From Pseudoxanthomonas sp. (GTDB taxonomy: Bacteria > Pseudomonadota > Gammaproteobacteria > Xanthomonadales > Xanthomonadaceae), in NCBI RefSeq assembly GCF_024710765.1, contig NZ_JANJUE010000013.1, positions 1 through 42,626 on the forward strand: 42,626 bases of DNA. Direction: 5' to 3'. Position numbers and translations under genes: made by a program. Positions 18,894 through 42,626 of the stretch are shown here, in pieces (position 1 is the stretch's first letter; each line of letters starts with the position of its first letter). Below the pieces are notes generated by a model that was not told where the DNA came from, ran no database searches, and saw only the letters and a program-made list of their open reading frames with translations.

Positions 18894-19640
18894 TCACCCG
18901 CGCGCGAGTTCGCCAATCAGTTCCGGCAATCCCGCCGAGGCCGCTTCGACGTTGGCCAGTACCTCGGCCATGGTGATCTCCTCGCCGGTACCGCAGCCGG
19001 CCGCCCAGTTGGCGACGATGGCGAGGCAGGCGTAATCCAGCCCCAGTTCGCGCGCCAAGCCGGCTTCGGGCATCCCGGTCATGCCCACCAGATCGCAACC
19101 GTCGCGGCGCATGCGCGCGATCTCGGCCTTGGTTTCCAGGCGCGGGCCCTGGGTGGCGCCATAGCAGCCACCGTCCACAAGTTTGACGCCGGTCACGCGC
19201 GCAGCCGCGACGATCTTGTGCCGCAGCAAAGGCGTATAGGGATCGCCGAAGTCCACGTGCAGCACTTCGCTGCCCGGCTCCTCGCAGATCGTGGAGATGC
19301 GTCCCCACGTGTAATCGATGATCTGATCCGGGCAGGCCAGCACGCGCGGACCGAACCGTTCGGTAATGCCACCCACCGTATTGAGCGCCAGCACCCGGGT
19401 GGCGCCGATGTCCTTCAGCGCGGCCAGGTTGGCGCGGTAATTCACCTGGTGCGGTGGCACCGAATGGCCTTCGCCATGCCGGGCCAGGAACGCGACCTTC
19501 TGGCCCAGCAGATGGCCGATGCGGATCGGACCGGACGGCTTGCCGAAGCGGGTATCGACTTCGCGCGTCTCGACATCGGCCAGCGCGGCCAGCCGGTAGA
19601 CGCCTGTGCCGCCGATCACCGCCAGCGCGATGCCGCTCAT
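18894..19640 (-). CDS. S-methyl-5'-thioinosine phosphorylase (MTAP/PNP family)
   Basis: A 248-residue nucleoside phosphorylase. Visible motifs are VIGGTGVYRL, FLARHGEGHSVPPHQVNYRA, LALNTVGGI, DGGCYGATQGPRLETKAEI, MTGMPEAGLARELGL and ANWAAG. It phosphorolyses a purine nucleoside to a base and sugar 1-phosphate. The GHSVPPHQ form, the family's presence in Pseudomonas relatives and the overlap with a hypoxanthine phosphoribosyltransferase favour methylthioinosine over methylthioadenosine as substrate; this is inference. Its ATG forms an ATGA overlap with the stop of hpt upstream. It is the last gene of the nagZ-hpt run. Confidence 0.88.
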   Translation of the reverse strand: MSGIALAVIGGTGVYRLAALADVETREVDTRFGKPSGPIRIGHLLGQKVAFLARHGEGHSVPPHQVNYRANLAALKDIGATRVLALNTVGGITERFGPRVLACPDQIIDYTWGRISTICEEPGSEVLHVDFGDPYTPLLRHKIVAAARVTGVKLVDGGCYGATQGPRLETKAEIARMRRDGCDLVGMTGMPEAGLARELGLDYACLAIVANWAAGCGTGEEITMAEVLANVEAASAGLPELIGELARG

Positions 19641-20212
19641 GCGCCTTCCTTCAGCGCATAGATGGCCGGCAGGTTGCGGCCCTGCTCGTAGTAGTCCATG
19701 CCGAAACCGAACACGTAGCGGTCGGCCACTTCCACGCCCATGTAGTCGGCCTGCACGCCTTCGACGCAGCGGTCATGGCGCTTGACGCTGAGCGCGGCGA
19801 TGCGCACGTCGGTGGCGCCCTGCTCCAGGCACCACTGGCGCACGGCCAGCAGGGTGTGGCCCTCGTCGAGGATGTCGTCGACCAGCAGCACGCGGCGGCC
19901 GTACAGCGCGGTGGCCGGGCGGTGCTTCCACACCAGTTCGCCCCCGGAGGTCTCGCCGCGATAACGGGTGGCGTGCAGGTAGTCGAATTCCAGATCCAGG
20001 CCGCGCGCGCCCAGTTCCAGCGCCAATTGGCCGGCGAACGGCAGCGCGCCGTGCATGATGGTCAGGTAGACCGGCACTTCGCCCGCGTAGTCGCGGGCAA
20101 TCGATTCGGCCATGCGCGCAATCGCATGGTCCAGGGTGGCGCGTTCCACCAGCAGATCGGCATTGGCCAGCGCATCGGCCAGCGCAGGACGCGTCGTTCC
20201 CAGTTTGCTCAT
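19637..20212 (-). CDS. hpt: Hypoxanthine-guanine phosphoribosyltransferase
   Basis: A 191-residue type I phosphoribosyltransferase with the PRPP loop RVLLVDDILDEGHTL, the N-terminal TIMHGALPFAGQLALEL and a base-binding tail ADRYVFGFGMDYYEQGRNLP. It converts hypoxanthine or guanine plus PRPP to IMP or GMP. ATG 20212 shares one base with the nagZ stop (TGATG), and the stop overlaps the phosphorylase start by 4 nt, so nagZ, hpt and the phosphorylase look co-translated. The phosphorylase would release hypoxanthine that this enzyme can salvage. Confidence 0.93.
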   Translation of the reverse strand: MSKLGTTRPALADALANADLLVERATLDHAIARMAESIARDYAGEVPVYLTIMHGALPFAGQLALELGARGLDLEFDYLHATRYRGETSGGELVWKHRPATALYGRRVLLVDDILDEGHTLLAVRQWCLEQGATDVRIAALSVKRHDRCVEGVQADYMGVEVADRYVFGFGMDYYEQGRNLPAIYALKEGA

Positions 20213-39476: not shown

Positions 39477-39869
39477 CTATCGGAAGTAGGACGCCTGCAG
39501 GAACCGCATGCCCGCCAGCACCTGATCCACCCGCGCTGGTGGAAGCATGCCGATGCATTCGCCCAGGCGGGTCTTGTAGAAACTGGCGACCTGCGAGACC
39601 ACCAATACGCTCGGCTTCTCCAGCCCGCCTTCGCCGGCTTCCAGCAGGACGTTGCCCGGTTCACTGGCGCGACGGAGGTTGCTGGTCACGCCGCAGACCA
39701 CGACCGTACCGATGCGCGAATGGTTGAACACGTCGTCCTGGATGATCAGGTGCGGGTGCGGTTGTCCCGGCATCAAGCCACGCGTCGGATCGGGTTCCAC
39801 CCAGTAGAGTTCGCCCCGGTGGATGCGTCCGGTGTGGGCGATGAGGCGGGGGTCGACGGTCCTGTCCAT
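39477..39869 (-). CDS. MazF/PemK-family toxin-like protein, no adjacent antitoxin seen
   Basis: A 130-residue protein with the MazF/PemK fold signatures: RGELYWVEPDPTRG at the start, PHLIIQDDVFN, VVVCGVTSNLRRASEPGNVL and a helical end (GMLPPARVDQVLAGMRFLQA). Family members are mRNA interferases usually paired with a small antitoxin encoded just upstream. Here upstream there is only an 87-nt gap to a divergent gene, and no small ORF resembling an antitoxin was found. ATG 39869 is preferred over GTG 39875; a TAAACT hexamer 6 nt before it suggests leaderless translation. Confidence 0.85.
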   Translation of the reverse strand: MDRTVDPRLIAHTGRIHRGELYWVEPDPTRGLMPGQPHPHLIIQDDVFNHSRIGTVVVCGVTSNLRRASEPGNVLLEAGEGGLEKPSVLVVSQVASFYKTRLGECIGMLPPARVDQVLAGMRFLQASYFR

Positions 39870-39956
39870 CCGCACAGTTTACGGGCTGGCCCCGCTTCTC
39901 TCCGGTTCGGGTACGCTGTGCCGCGCCGAGTCGTTCCTGCCCTTCCGGGAGTCCGC

Positions 39957-40637
39957 ATGTTCGATACCGCCAGGCACCGCCACATCGCCGCCGTCGTCGC
40001 GCTGGTCTACGTCGCGGTGCAATCATTCCAGTGGTACGTGTTCGGGCAGTTGCCGGAAGCGGGCGAACCGGCGCAGCAGTTGTTGCAGGGGTCGCATCCC
40101 CTCAATATCGCGCGGGCGGCCAGCATGCTGCTCTCGTTCTTCGGCCTGGCCTATCTGTTCCTCGTATCCTGCGGCATCGCCTGGCGACGCAACCCGACAC
40201 TGGCGGCATTGGCGTTCCTTGGCTTCTTCGTCTTCTGCCTGCTGGAAGTCCAGTTACGCGCGGTGGAACTGTTCCATGTCTACCTGGCGCTGCCCGATCA
40301 GTACCAGGCCACCACCGACCCCGCCGAACAGGCGCGCATCCTCGCCGCACAGGCCAGCTTCCAGTCCATCCAGTACGCGCTGTATTTCCCGCTGGGCCTG
40401 TCCTGGCTGCTGGGCAGCGTATTGATCTGCGTCGCGCTGGGGAAGGAACGCATCCACTGGCTCGCTCTATGGGCGTTCGGCCTGAATGCCGTGCGGTTGT
40501 TCCTGCGGATGATCGATACCTATCTCATTGGCCCGAAATTCGATGCGCTCTACGGCACGCTCTACCTGCCGCTGGTCTATCTGAGCTTCGTGCCACTGGC
40601 GATCTGGTTGTGGCGCTGGGACCCGCCCCGATCCTGA
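39957..40637 (+). CDS. Multi-pass membrane protein of unknown function
   Basis: A 226-residue protein with about six hydrophobic helices, including IAAVVALVYVAVQSF, AASMLLSFFGLAYLFLVSCG, LAALAFLGFFVFCLLEVQLR, YFPLGLSWLLGSVLICVALG and LYLPLVYLSFVPLAIWLW. No catalytic motif or known family is recognised. ATG 39957 has GGGAG 5 nt upstream, strong evidence for this start. It lies between the divergent MazF-like gene and the secreted glycosidase-like gene, about 100 nt before the latter. Confidence 0.75.
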   Translation: MFDTARHRHIAAVVALVYVAVQSFQWYVFGQLPEAGEPAQQLLQGSHPLNIARAASMLLSFFGLAYLFLVSCGIAWRRNPTLAALAFLGFFVFCLLEVQLRAVELFHVYLALPDQYQATTDPAEQARILAAQASFQSIQYALYFPLGLSWLLGSVLICVALGKERIHWLALWAFGLNAVRLFLRMIDTYLIGPKFDALYGTLYLPLVYLSFVPLAIWLWRWDPPRS

Positions 40638-40734
40638 TGTTCGGGAATGAAGGACGCGATGGAGAGCATGACAGTGCACATTTAACCGACCAAGCGATCT
40701 GCAAGAACTATCTTTTTTCCCAGGGAAGCATCGA

Positions 40735-42381
40735 ATGTCGCTATCCATCCAGATCAAAAATGCAGTCCTCGCAGCGGCTTTTACCTTTTCATTCGTGGCA
40801 GCAGGAGATGTACATGCTGCTGCAATTTCCCAGACACGTTCGGTAACACTGTACGAACCCGCAGGTGCCATATGGGATATCGAACATACGCCGGTTTTTG
40901 CAGACCGAGTAAAATTGGCCAAGAACACCGGCTTCAACGCGGTATGGCTGGTCGTACTGTGGAACAAACTCGATCCTGTCCCCAGCGCCTCCGGTGAAAT
41001 ATCGCTAGTCGACTGCTCACTTGCGGGCAACGCAGGGCAGTATCAATGCGCATTGGAGCGCGCTCTCCAGGTCATCCATCAGGAAGGCATGGATGTATTC
41101 ATTTCGCTGAACTATGCCAGCGCGGCCGCTTCAGATGAATTCAAGGCCGCTGCTCAATACGAAACGATGGCGTTCGGCCAGGGTCCCGCGAAACTGTACA
41201 GATATGGTCGCCATATCGCCCGCCTCGTCGCACGCAATGGACTTTCCCAGTCCGCACGATTCATGATGCACGACGAAGGAATCCTTGGTCCCTATCCCTC
41301 GTTGCATGCCTACCCGGATGTGCAACAGAACTTCCGCGACTATCTATACGGGATCAATTCCAGTCTTTCCTATTGGAATTCACGCTGGGGGCTCACCGGT
41401 GCTCAGACGTTATCCAACTGGTCGCAAGTCAAAACATTCGATTTGACCACTGCTCCGCTCGACCGCCCACAATTGCAGGACCATATCGCCTGGGTCAATT
41501 GGGTGTTCCGACAGACATTCGGTAGCGGCGCATTCGAATCCAGCATCCGCCAGATTATCCCCGGGGCCATGGTGGGCCTCCATGCCACCTACTTCACCCT
41601 GGTGAATCCCAATGGCCCTGTGTCCAATGCGCCGCAGACACCCGTTAGTTCGCTGTCCACGATGAATTTCGTATCGTTTCCCTATTATGACAGCGGTAGA
41701 AGCAACTTTGGCCTGTCCTTCGATCAATACGTCGACAACGCCGGGGTCTTTTTCCAGAACCGACCGCTCTTTGTCGGAGAGCTTGGCAGCATCAATTGCC
41801 AGGCACCTGGTGACTGTGTGGAGATCAACGGCCAACCCTATCGGACGAGCTTGCGGGTCAAGCGCCGTCAAGCAACTTTCCTGACCCAGGCACCGGCCCT
41901 TCTTGCGGCCAAGTCGATTGGATACAACGTCTGGAGCCTCAACGAGTTCCCCTTTCCGGACCGGGAGGGAAGCTTTGGCATCTATGAGGCGACGCCAGGC
42001 AACAGCAACACCTTCGAAAATCCCGTGTTCAAGCCCGCCGCTTGCGCGCTGCGAACTGTTCAAGGCAGCACATCTCCAACCCTGTGTGTCGCATCCGCGG
42101 GCGTAAACAATCAGTATTCGCCGCGTGCGCTGTGGCTCAGCGGCCGTGGATTCCAGCCAGGCGCACAGATCAGGCTATCGAATGAAATCGGTACATACAT
42201 TCACCCAACCCTTGTCTCACCCACTGTGGGATCCACCAGCAGCCTGTCTTTCCAGTTGGAAGATGCTGCCATCGCACTATTGGGCTGCGGCGCGAACACT
42301 ACCAACTGCGCCATTGTCGCGGAGGTAAGTCAACCTCAAACCGGCACCTGGTCCAACAAGGTACTGGTTCAAATCAATTGA
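40735..42381 (+). CDS. Secreted GH-A-clan (GH42-like) glycosidase-family protein with C-terminal Ig-like domain
   Basis: The 548-residue precursor has a Sec signal peptide (AVLAAAFTFSFVAAGDVHAA) and a TIM-barrel-like domain: KNTGFNAVWLVVLWNKLDPV, GMDVFISLNYASAA, a likely acid/base in MMHDEGILGPY (E181), a GH42-like LSYWNSRWGLTGAQTLSNWS and a likely nucleophile in LFVGELGSINC (E349). The two Glu are 168 residues apart, as in GH42 and related families. About residues 450-548 resemble an IPT/Ig-like domain (ALWLSGRGFQPGAQIRLSNE). Several Cys pairs suggest disulfides. An AGGGAA ribosome site precedes ATG 40735. The gene is visibly AT-richer than its neighbours, consistent with transfer. The substrate is unknown and the family call is by motif only. 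Confidence 0.7.
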   Translation: MSLSIQIKNAVLAAAFTFSFVAAGDVHAAAISQTRSVTLYEPAGAIWDIEHTPVFADRVKLAKNTGFNAVWLVVLWNKLDPVPSASGEISLVDCSLAGNAGQYQCALERALQVIHQEGMDVFISLNYASAAASDEFKAAAQYETMAFGQGPAKLYRYGRHIARLVARNGLSQSARFMMHDEGILGPYPSLHAYPDVQQNFRDYLYGINSSLSYWNSRWGLTGAQTLSNWSQVKTFDLTTAPLDRPQLQDHIAWVNWVFRQTFGSGAFESSIRQIIPGAMVGLHATYFTLVNPNGPVSNAPQTPVSSLSTMNFVSFPYYDSGRSNFGLSFDQYVDNAGVFFQNRPLFVGELGSINCQAPGDCVEINGQPYRTSLRVKRRQATFLTQAPALLAAKSIGYNVWSLNEFPFPDREGSFGIYEATPGNSNTFENPVFKPAACALRTVQGSTSPTLCVASAGVNNQYSPRALWLSGRGFQPGAQIRLSNEIGTYIHPTLVSPTVGSTSSLSFQLEDAAIALLGCGANTTNCAIVAEVSQPQTGTWSNKVLVQIN

Positions 42382-42485: not shown

Positions 42486-42626
42486 CTACCGCCTGAAGAC
42501 AAGACGCCCGGCGAGGAAGAACATCAGCACCGCCAGCAGCCAGGGCCCCAGCGATTCCCAGGGGTGCCGCAGGCGAAGTGCCGCGGGTTGGTTCACATGC
42601 GGATTGGAAGGCAGATAGAGGATGCG
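42486..42626 (-). CDS. 3' end of a membrane protein, possibly DUF3592-like (partial)
   Basis: The last 46 codons of a reverse-strand gene enter from the right edge: RILYLPSNPHVNQPAALRLR, then a terminal membrane helix GPWLLAVLMFFLAGRLVF and stop. The YxPxNP segment followed by one helix fits the end of DUF3592 proteins. The rest lies outside the window, so the family is only a suggestion. Confidence 0.5.
   Translation of the reverse strand, partial: RILYLPSNPHVNQPAALRLRHPWESLGPWLLAVLMFFLAGRLVFRR

Follow-up and report, generated by a model that had tools for sequence, protein, structure and literature searches.

An orphan gene for a probably secreted GH-A-like protein at a variable chromosomal spot in Pseudoxanthomonas sp.

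In clan GH-A, the catalytic glutamates sit at the ends of barrel strands 4 and 7 (PMC7105311, PMC8233224). The same two reports describe enzymes that have the GH42 fold, belong to other families and share low sequence identity with GH42. Three GH-A precedents with a GH42-like fold or weak GH42 similarity are relevant here: EngU (PMC5725463), Bs164 (PMC7105311) and Op5Man5 (PMC8233224). EngU is a metagenomic beta-glucanase that carries a signal peptide, resembles GH42 only locally and weakly, and founded family GH148. Bs164 is a GH164 beta-mannosidase whose catalytic residues are E160 and E297 (spacing 137), with Asn159 preceding E160. In the GH5 enzyme Op5Man5, the trimerisation domain comprises residues 367-586, and the same source lists Arg58, Asn155, Glu156, His240, Glu281 and Trp317 as identical in five GH5 exo-mannosidases. 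These precedents show that faint GH42 similarity can occur in GH-A enzymes belonging to other families and does not have to mean beta-galactosidase activity.

The gene described here is a real, accessory orphan, and its product, judging from the sequence, is probably secreted and probably a GH-A-type glycosidase. It lies on C224, one of the 443 contigs of a Pseudoxanthomonas sp. genome of 4.63 Mb. The window takes in this contig from end to end (42,626 nucleotides), and its relevant features are as follows.

39957 to 40637, + strand: membrane protein gene of the left flank, found in three congeners besides its own genome (65-89% identity)
40722 to 40726, + strand: AGGGA, a likely ribosome-binding site 8 nt 5' of the ATG, read from the sequence
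40735 to 42381, + strand: gene for the orphan, probably secreted GH-A-like protein, 548 aa; intact ORF with GC 0.553 and GC3 0.625
40735 to 40818, + strand: putative signal peptide, residues 1-28 (ending VHA, followed by A), from the translation read by eye
40831 to 42069, + strand: proposed (beta/alpha)8 catalytic domain, residues 33-445, from strands placed by eye and hhalign to GH42
41275 to 41277, + strand: codon of E181, the proposed acid/base (FMMHDEG), preceded by Asp180 rather than Asn, by eye
41779 to 41781, + strand: codon of E349, the proposed nucleophile (PLFVGELG), by eye
42040 to 42378, + strand: C-terminal domain, residues 436-548, probably all-beta and possibly Ig-like, from a low-confidence model
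42486 to 42626, - strand: 3' end of a small membrane-protein gene, within a 141-nt exact overlap with contig C321

The reading frame starts with ATG and has no internal stops, and the ORF of 548 codons, at the interval given in the preliminary description, is intact. The chance of that many open codons at the ORF's own base composition is 1.7e-9. GC content is highest at the third codon position (GC3 0.625, GC1 0.561, GC2 0.474), an order that is expected of coding DNA in this organism. The N-terminus, MSLSIQIKNAVLAAAFTFSFVAAGDVHA followed by A, is judged by eye, and by eye only, to be a Sec signal peptide, in agreement with the earlier view that the protein is secreted. Two further features that had been noted are present in the translation: the glutamates E181 and E349, spaced 168 residues apart, and several cysteine pairs, the eight Cys forming four close pairs (94/105, 355/361, 437/451 and 518/525).

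At E ≤ 10, the whole protein matches no family in Pfam, NCBIfam or PHROGs. The absence of a close CAZy family, named earlier as one mark of support, is seen here through Pfam and NCBIfam, the libraries standing in for CAZy. Among PDB sequences there is no relative (best E 0.24, 1.7 and 0.22). Whole-genome homology searches, which covered the organism's own phylum plus plasmids and phages, recover only the gene itself at E ≤ 1e-3, in one of 297 family genomes and one of 369 class genomes. Among the 37 congeners the best match has an E of 0.031, so that none passes E ≤ 0.01. With looser limits, and with the gene's own genome included in each count, matches occur in 5 of 398 order genomes (E ≤ 0.01), 39 of 398 phylum genomes (E ≤ 1) and 9 of 100 related genomes (E ≤ 10); the family, related, class, phylum and order samples overlap and do not represent distinct genomes. 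The best foreign match in the genome samples has an E value of 0.0022, and none reaches 1e-3. Frames were read by eye at 10 of the 27 weak-match loci from the related and phylum samples, and none of the ten was judged to be a relative. A single plasmid match (E 0.4) and zero phage matches were obtained. Scanning 84,980 species genomes and the viral contigs for peptide patterns yielded no confirmed relative; the degenerate pattern FPxxDREGxFG occurs in 13 stretches of the species genomes and one of the viral contigs, with a best tblastn E of 0.083. Since the pattern scans are estimated to overlook the majority of relatives with less than about 60% identity, and the whole-genome homology searches stayed within the phylum, distant relatives may exist.

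Read by eye, the translation contains eight candidate strand segments (SVTLYEP, AVWLVVLW, DVFISLNY, ARFMMHDE, AMVGLHA, NFVSFPYY, PLFVGELG and YNVWSLNEF), with a Glu at the ends of segments 4 and 7. The spacing of these residues falls inside the range of 160-174 seen in all 13 GH42 sequences. Counterparts of four of the six conserved exo-mannosidase residues can be placed by eye (E181, E349, H283 and W400), and H283, Y317/Y318, W400 and E404 are plausibly located by the same means. Automatic alignments behave differently. MAFFT sets W76, W218 and G219 on columns that are invariant (W, W and G) across the 13 GH42 sequences. In the hhalign and MAFFT alignments the GH42 catalytic Glu falls two residues past E181, and E349 is not set on the nucleophile by any automatic alignment (MAFFT with GH42). 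The catalytic reading consequently rests on the by-eye motifs FMMHDEG and PLFVGELG.

We infer the fold, catalytic residues, mechanism, secretion and substrate class, and it is reasonably probable that the protein is a secreted retaining beta-glycosidase of the clan GH-A type that falls outside the families tested (Pfam and NCBIfam models, and GH42, GH5 and GH39 profiles). Such a glycosidase would have a single catalytic domain followed by a small C-terminal domain, probably of beta type, with residues 33-445 or so most likely forming a (beta/alpha)8 barrel of the clan GH-A type. It would cut a beta-linked glycan, probably a polysaccharide, outside the cytoplasm by a two-step retaining mechanism. 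E349, on strand 7, would attack the anomeric carbon, while E181, on strand 4, would first protonate the leaving group and then activate water. Beneath the sugar, W400 of strand 8 would provide stacking, and H283 and Y317/Y318 would line the pocket.

Two positions depart from this pattern. The orphan has D180-E181 and V70-W71 at positions where all 13 GH42 sequences carry NE and VR, the spots being aligned partly by eye. With Asp180 in place of Asn and Trp71 in place of the strand-2 Arg, the -1 subsite should differ from that of characterised families. These two residues would mark either a different -1 subsite or lost activity. The latter leads to the alternative that a GH-A-type barrel has lost its glycosidase function, or works differently, and that the protein, glycan-binding or otherwise altered, is secreted to bind a polysaccharide. 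In its favour, Trp71 and Asp180 replace the R and N of every GH42 sequence compared, and occupy the positions of residues common to the five GH5 exo-mannosidases of PMC8233224. However, E181, E349, H283 and W400 are kept where a working enzyme needs them, as is the spacing, and both the substitutions and the counterparts depend on by-eye alignment. An altered barrel of this kind is therefore considered unlikely.

Profile comparison bears on whether there is a barrel at all. Profiles were made from loci found with Pfam models (GH42, n = 13; GH5, n = 9; GH39, n = 3). For residues 33-445, hhalign gives P values of 0.00095 with GH42, 0.031 with GH5 and 0.45 with GH39, GH42 being the best of three families tried. 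The score to GH42, 33.2, exceeds those of 400 of 400 shuffles (best 29.9) and of 345 of 345 decoy frames (best 26.2), which are stop-to-stop frames of at least 250 aa, many probably not real genes; the reversed sequence scores 15.3. The aligned stretch, residues 107-219, begins at the helix that precedes strand 3, ends in the GH42-type insert that follows strand 4, and pairs FRDYL...WNSRWG of the orphan with FRNWC...LNRQWG of GH42. A single helix-strand piece of 17 residues, which may be generic to GH-A, accounts for much of the signal. When the domain is divided, residues 33-135 (24.6 against 22.6) and residues 105-275 (25.0 against 23.7) each narrowly exceed 100 of 100 shuffles. Residues 270-445 and 330-445 give no signal over shuffles, their scores being reached by 56 and 50 of 100, respectively. 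The C-terminal half is thus at shuffle level, which leaves the nucleophile without profile support. Searches with hmmsearch --max are not significant for GH42 (2.4 bits, reached by 8 of 2000 shuffles and none of 345 decoys) or for GH5 (4.7 bits, reached by 4 of 2000 shuffles and 1 of 345 decoys), and report nothing for GH39.

Structure prediction is similarly limited. The single-sequence AlphaFold2 model of the mature protein is unusable (pLDDT 32.8), and that of the C-terminal part has seven strands at a mean pLDDT of 50.4. As AlphaFold2 without homologues is unusable here, the barrel and an Ig-like C-terminus are both unproven. The small C-terminal domain is probably all-beta, judging from its low-confidence model, which has no significant match among PDB folds (best E 0.055). 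Residues 436-548 match no Pfam family at E ≤ 10, the IPT/TIG domain (PF01833) included. With no Pfam match, a model of this confidence and no significant fold match, the TIG-like C-terminus of the preliminary description is not confirmed.

It is conceivable that the protein is not a TIM barrel, being instead another secreted alpha/beta protein in which the Glu pair and GH-like motifs are coincidental. The lack of a family match and of a usable model, the shuffle-level C-terminal half and the hmmsearch results are all compatible with this. Nevertheless, the hhalign score to GH42 lies above all 745 shuffles and decoys, and strand and helix motifs follow in order by eye across the whole domain, making a non-barrel fold distinctly improbable. 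The GH-A-like catalytic domain proposed earlier is moderately supported: the similarity to GH42, the Glu spacing and the eight strands support it, whereas no family HMM matches, no model is usable and the C-terminal half carries no signal.

The relationship of a GH-A-type enzyme to the known families can be considered one family at a time. Likeness to GH42 comprises the weak N-terminal profile similarity, the Glu spacing (168 against 160-174) and a helix-rich insert after strand 4, ending WNSRWG in the orphan and LN..WG in GH42. The orphan differs in its signal peptide, as read by eye, and in its closely spaced Cys pairs. Highly divergent but genuine GH42 membership, as an exported beta-galactosidase, would explain the best hhalign score of three families and the similar Glu spacing, but is very improbable given that PF02449 has no match at E ≤ 10 in the protein and zero matches at E ≤ 1e-10 in its own genome, that D-E and V-W replace the N-E and V-R of all 13 GH42 sequences, and that the roughly 108 residues after residue 440 are too few for a trimerisation domain of about 200. 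GH42 membership is rejected on these grounds, namely the missing Pfam match, the lack of room for a trimerisation domain, the Trp for the strand-2 Arg and the Asp for Asn. What survives of the earlier GH42-like assignment is the resemblance of the N-terminal half and of the insert after strand 4.

For GH5 (PF00150), there is no Pfam match at E ≤ 10 in the protein, nor any at E ≤ 1e-5 in its genome. On strand 2, GFNAVWLVVLW of the orphan is similar to GFNAVRLGVLF in one GH5 sequence (L070), but the strand-2 Arg is missing, and neither the hhalign P of 0.031 nor the 4.7-bit score is significant. GH39 (PF01229) likewise has no match at E ≤ 10 in the protein and none at E ≤ 1e-5 in its genome, and its hhalign P is 0.45. 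The GH148 enzyme EngU has a signal peptide and is a GH-A enzyme whose kinship is detectable only as local, weak GH42 similarity, as proposed for the orphan. It differs, by description only, in its length of 905 residues, a CBM4 after strand 4 and the motifs INNEN and VTEYN; the orphan has 548 residues, and no such insert is seen. Bs164 of GH164 has a signal peptide, a GH42-like barrel with a helical subdomain after strand 4 and Glu on strands 4 and 7, as proposed for the orphan. Its spacing of 137, its Asn159 and its trimerisation and beta-sandwich domains set it apart, again by description only.

A more specific form of the secreted-glycosidase reading is put forward tentatively and at less than even probability: the protein may be the founding member of an unclassified clan GH-A family, with a GH42-type strand-4 insert, no trimerisation domain, and Trp and Asp swaps that give it a new -1 subsite and, probably, a substrate that is new as well, GH148 and GH164 being set apart by description only. 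If the protein is an enzyme, Pfam and NCBIfam models miss this glycosidase altogether, and no relative can be detected among the genomes sampled from its genus, family, order, class and phylum. The unusual residues of its active site would then show how far the chemistry of GH-A can be altered and could hint at a glycan not yet studied. Were the protein inactive, the gene would still be a clear case of an orphan at a defined, variable chromosomal spot.

Both flanks of the gene can be traced in congeners. To the right, the window and contig C321 (L080) of the same genome overlap by 141 identical nucleotides, the end of the one being the start of the other. A usual largest k of the MEGAHIT assembler is 141, and since the overlap has this length, the two contigs are probably neighbours in the assembly graph. 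C321 thus gives the probable gene order right of the window: the small membrane protein, which matches no Pfam family, is followed by a DUF6959 gene (E 1.5e-19), a second protein with no match in Pfam, and then a PAS-HisKA kinase. To the left, the membrane protein gene has no significant Pfam match and is present in 4 of 38 genus genomes, its own included. Further upstream are a phosphotransferase-like and a fadJ-like gene, both named by reading the sequence. The orphan is a gene without telling neighbours. The earlier statement that regulators are missing from its surroundings applies inside the window, but the start of the PAS-HisKA kinase lies about 2 kb after the orphan's end on the adjoining contig.

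Nucleotide homology of the left flank to congeners G016 and G091 ends at 40616. In G016, only 28 bp separate the equivalent of this position from the point where homology starts again, which corresponds to C321 position 994; in the orphan's own genome about 2.86 kb separate those flanks, if the contigs join as the overlap says. In G091, the flank-to-flank gap is 768 bp and is occupied by other small ORFs; the spot may be one of gene turnover. The membrane gene also occurs in a third congener, G300 (65% identity), where blastn finds no match to the right flank in 13 kb of sequence. Because both flanks match two congeners in order, the gene belongs to the chromosome and is accessory. Contamination had to be weighed, as the genome is 4.5% contaminated and an AT-richer gene lies at a contig end; it is ruled out by the collinearity of both flanks with two congeners. 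The orphan is an accessory addition at a variable chromosomal spot; gain, we infer, is more likely than loss in all others. The near-empty site in one congener, the lack of matches in 37 congeners and the low GC agree with the earlier proposal of an acquired gene.

Base composition also sets the gene apart, as first described. The three upstream genes have GC of 0.63-0.69 and GC3 of 0.81-0.90 (fadJ-like gene, 0.686 and 0.897; phosphotransferase-like gene, 0.679 and 0.813; membrane protein gene, 0.631 and 0.846), against 0.553 and 0.625 for the orphan. Among 1-kb windows, those with the lowest GC (0.539-0.584) all lie over the orphan gene, and the next lowest is 0.619. On the adjoining contig C321 (L080), GC falls to 0.558 within positions 19001-20000; AT-richer patches are thus not unique to the orphan gene in this genome.

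Between 40300 and 42626 there is no clear mobile-element signature, only short repeats, including one perfect 12-nt inverted pair (40402-40413 and 42533-42544). Promoter- and terminator-like sites around the gene are no more frequent than in shuffles. In the gap of the congener (locus L033, 9531-10298), one small ORF seems alike, by eye, to a small ORF on C321 (L080, 430-960). Just left of the conserved membrane gene, at 39477-39875 on the - strand, lies a PemK/MazF-type toxin gene (Pfam PF02452, E 4.8e-21). The blastn alignments to G016 and G091 skip this toxin gene, which may thus be a second variable gene at this location.
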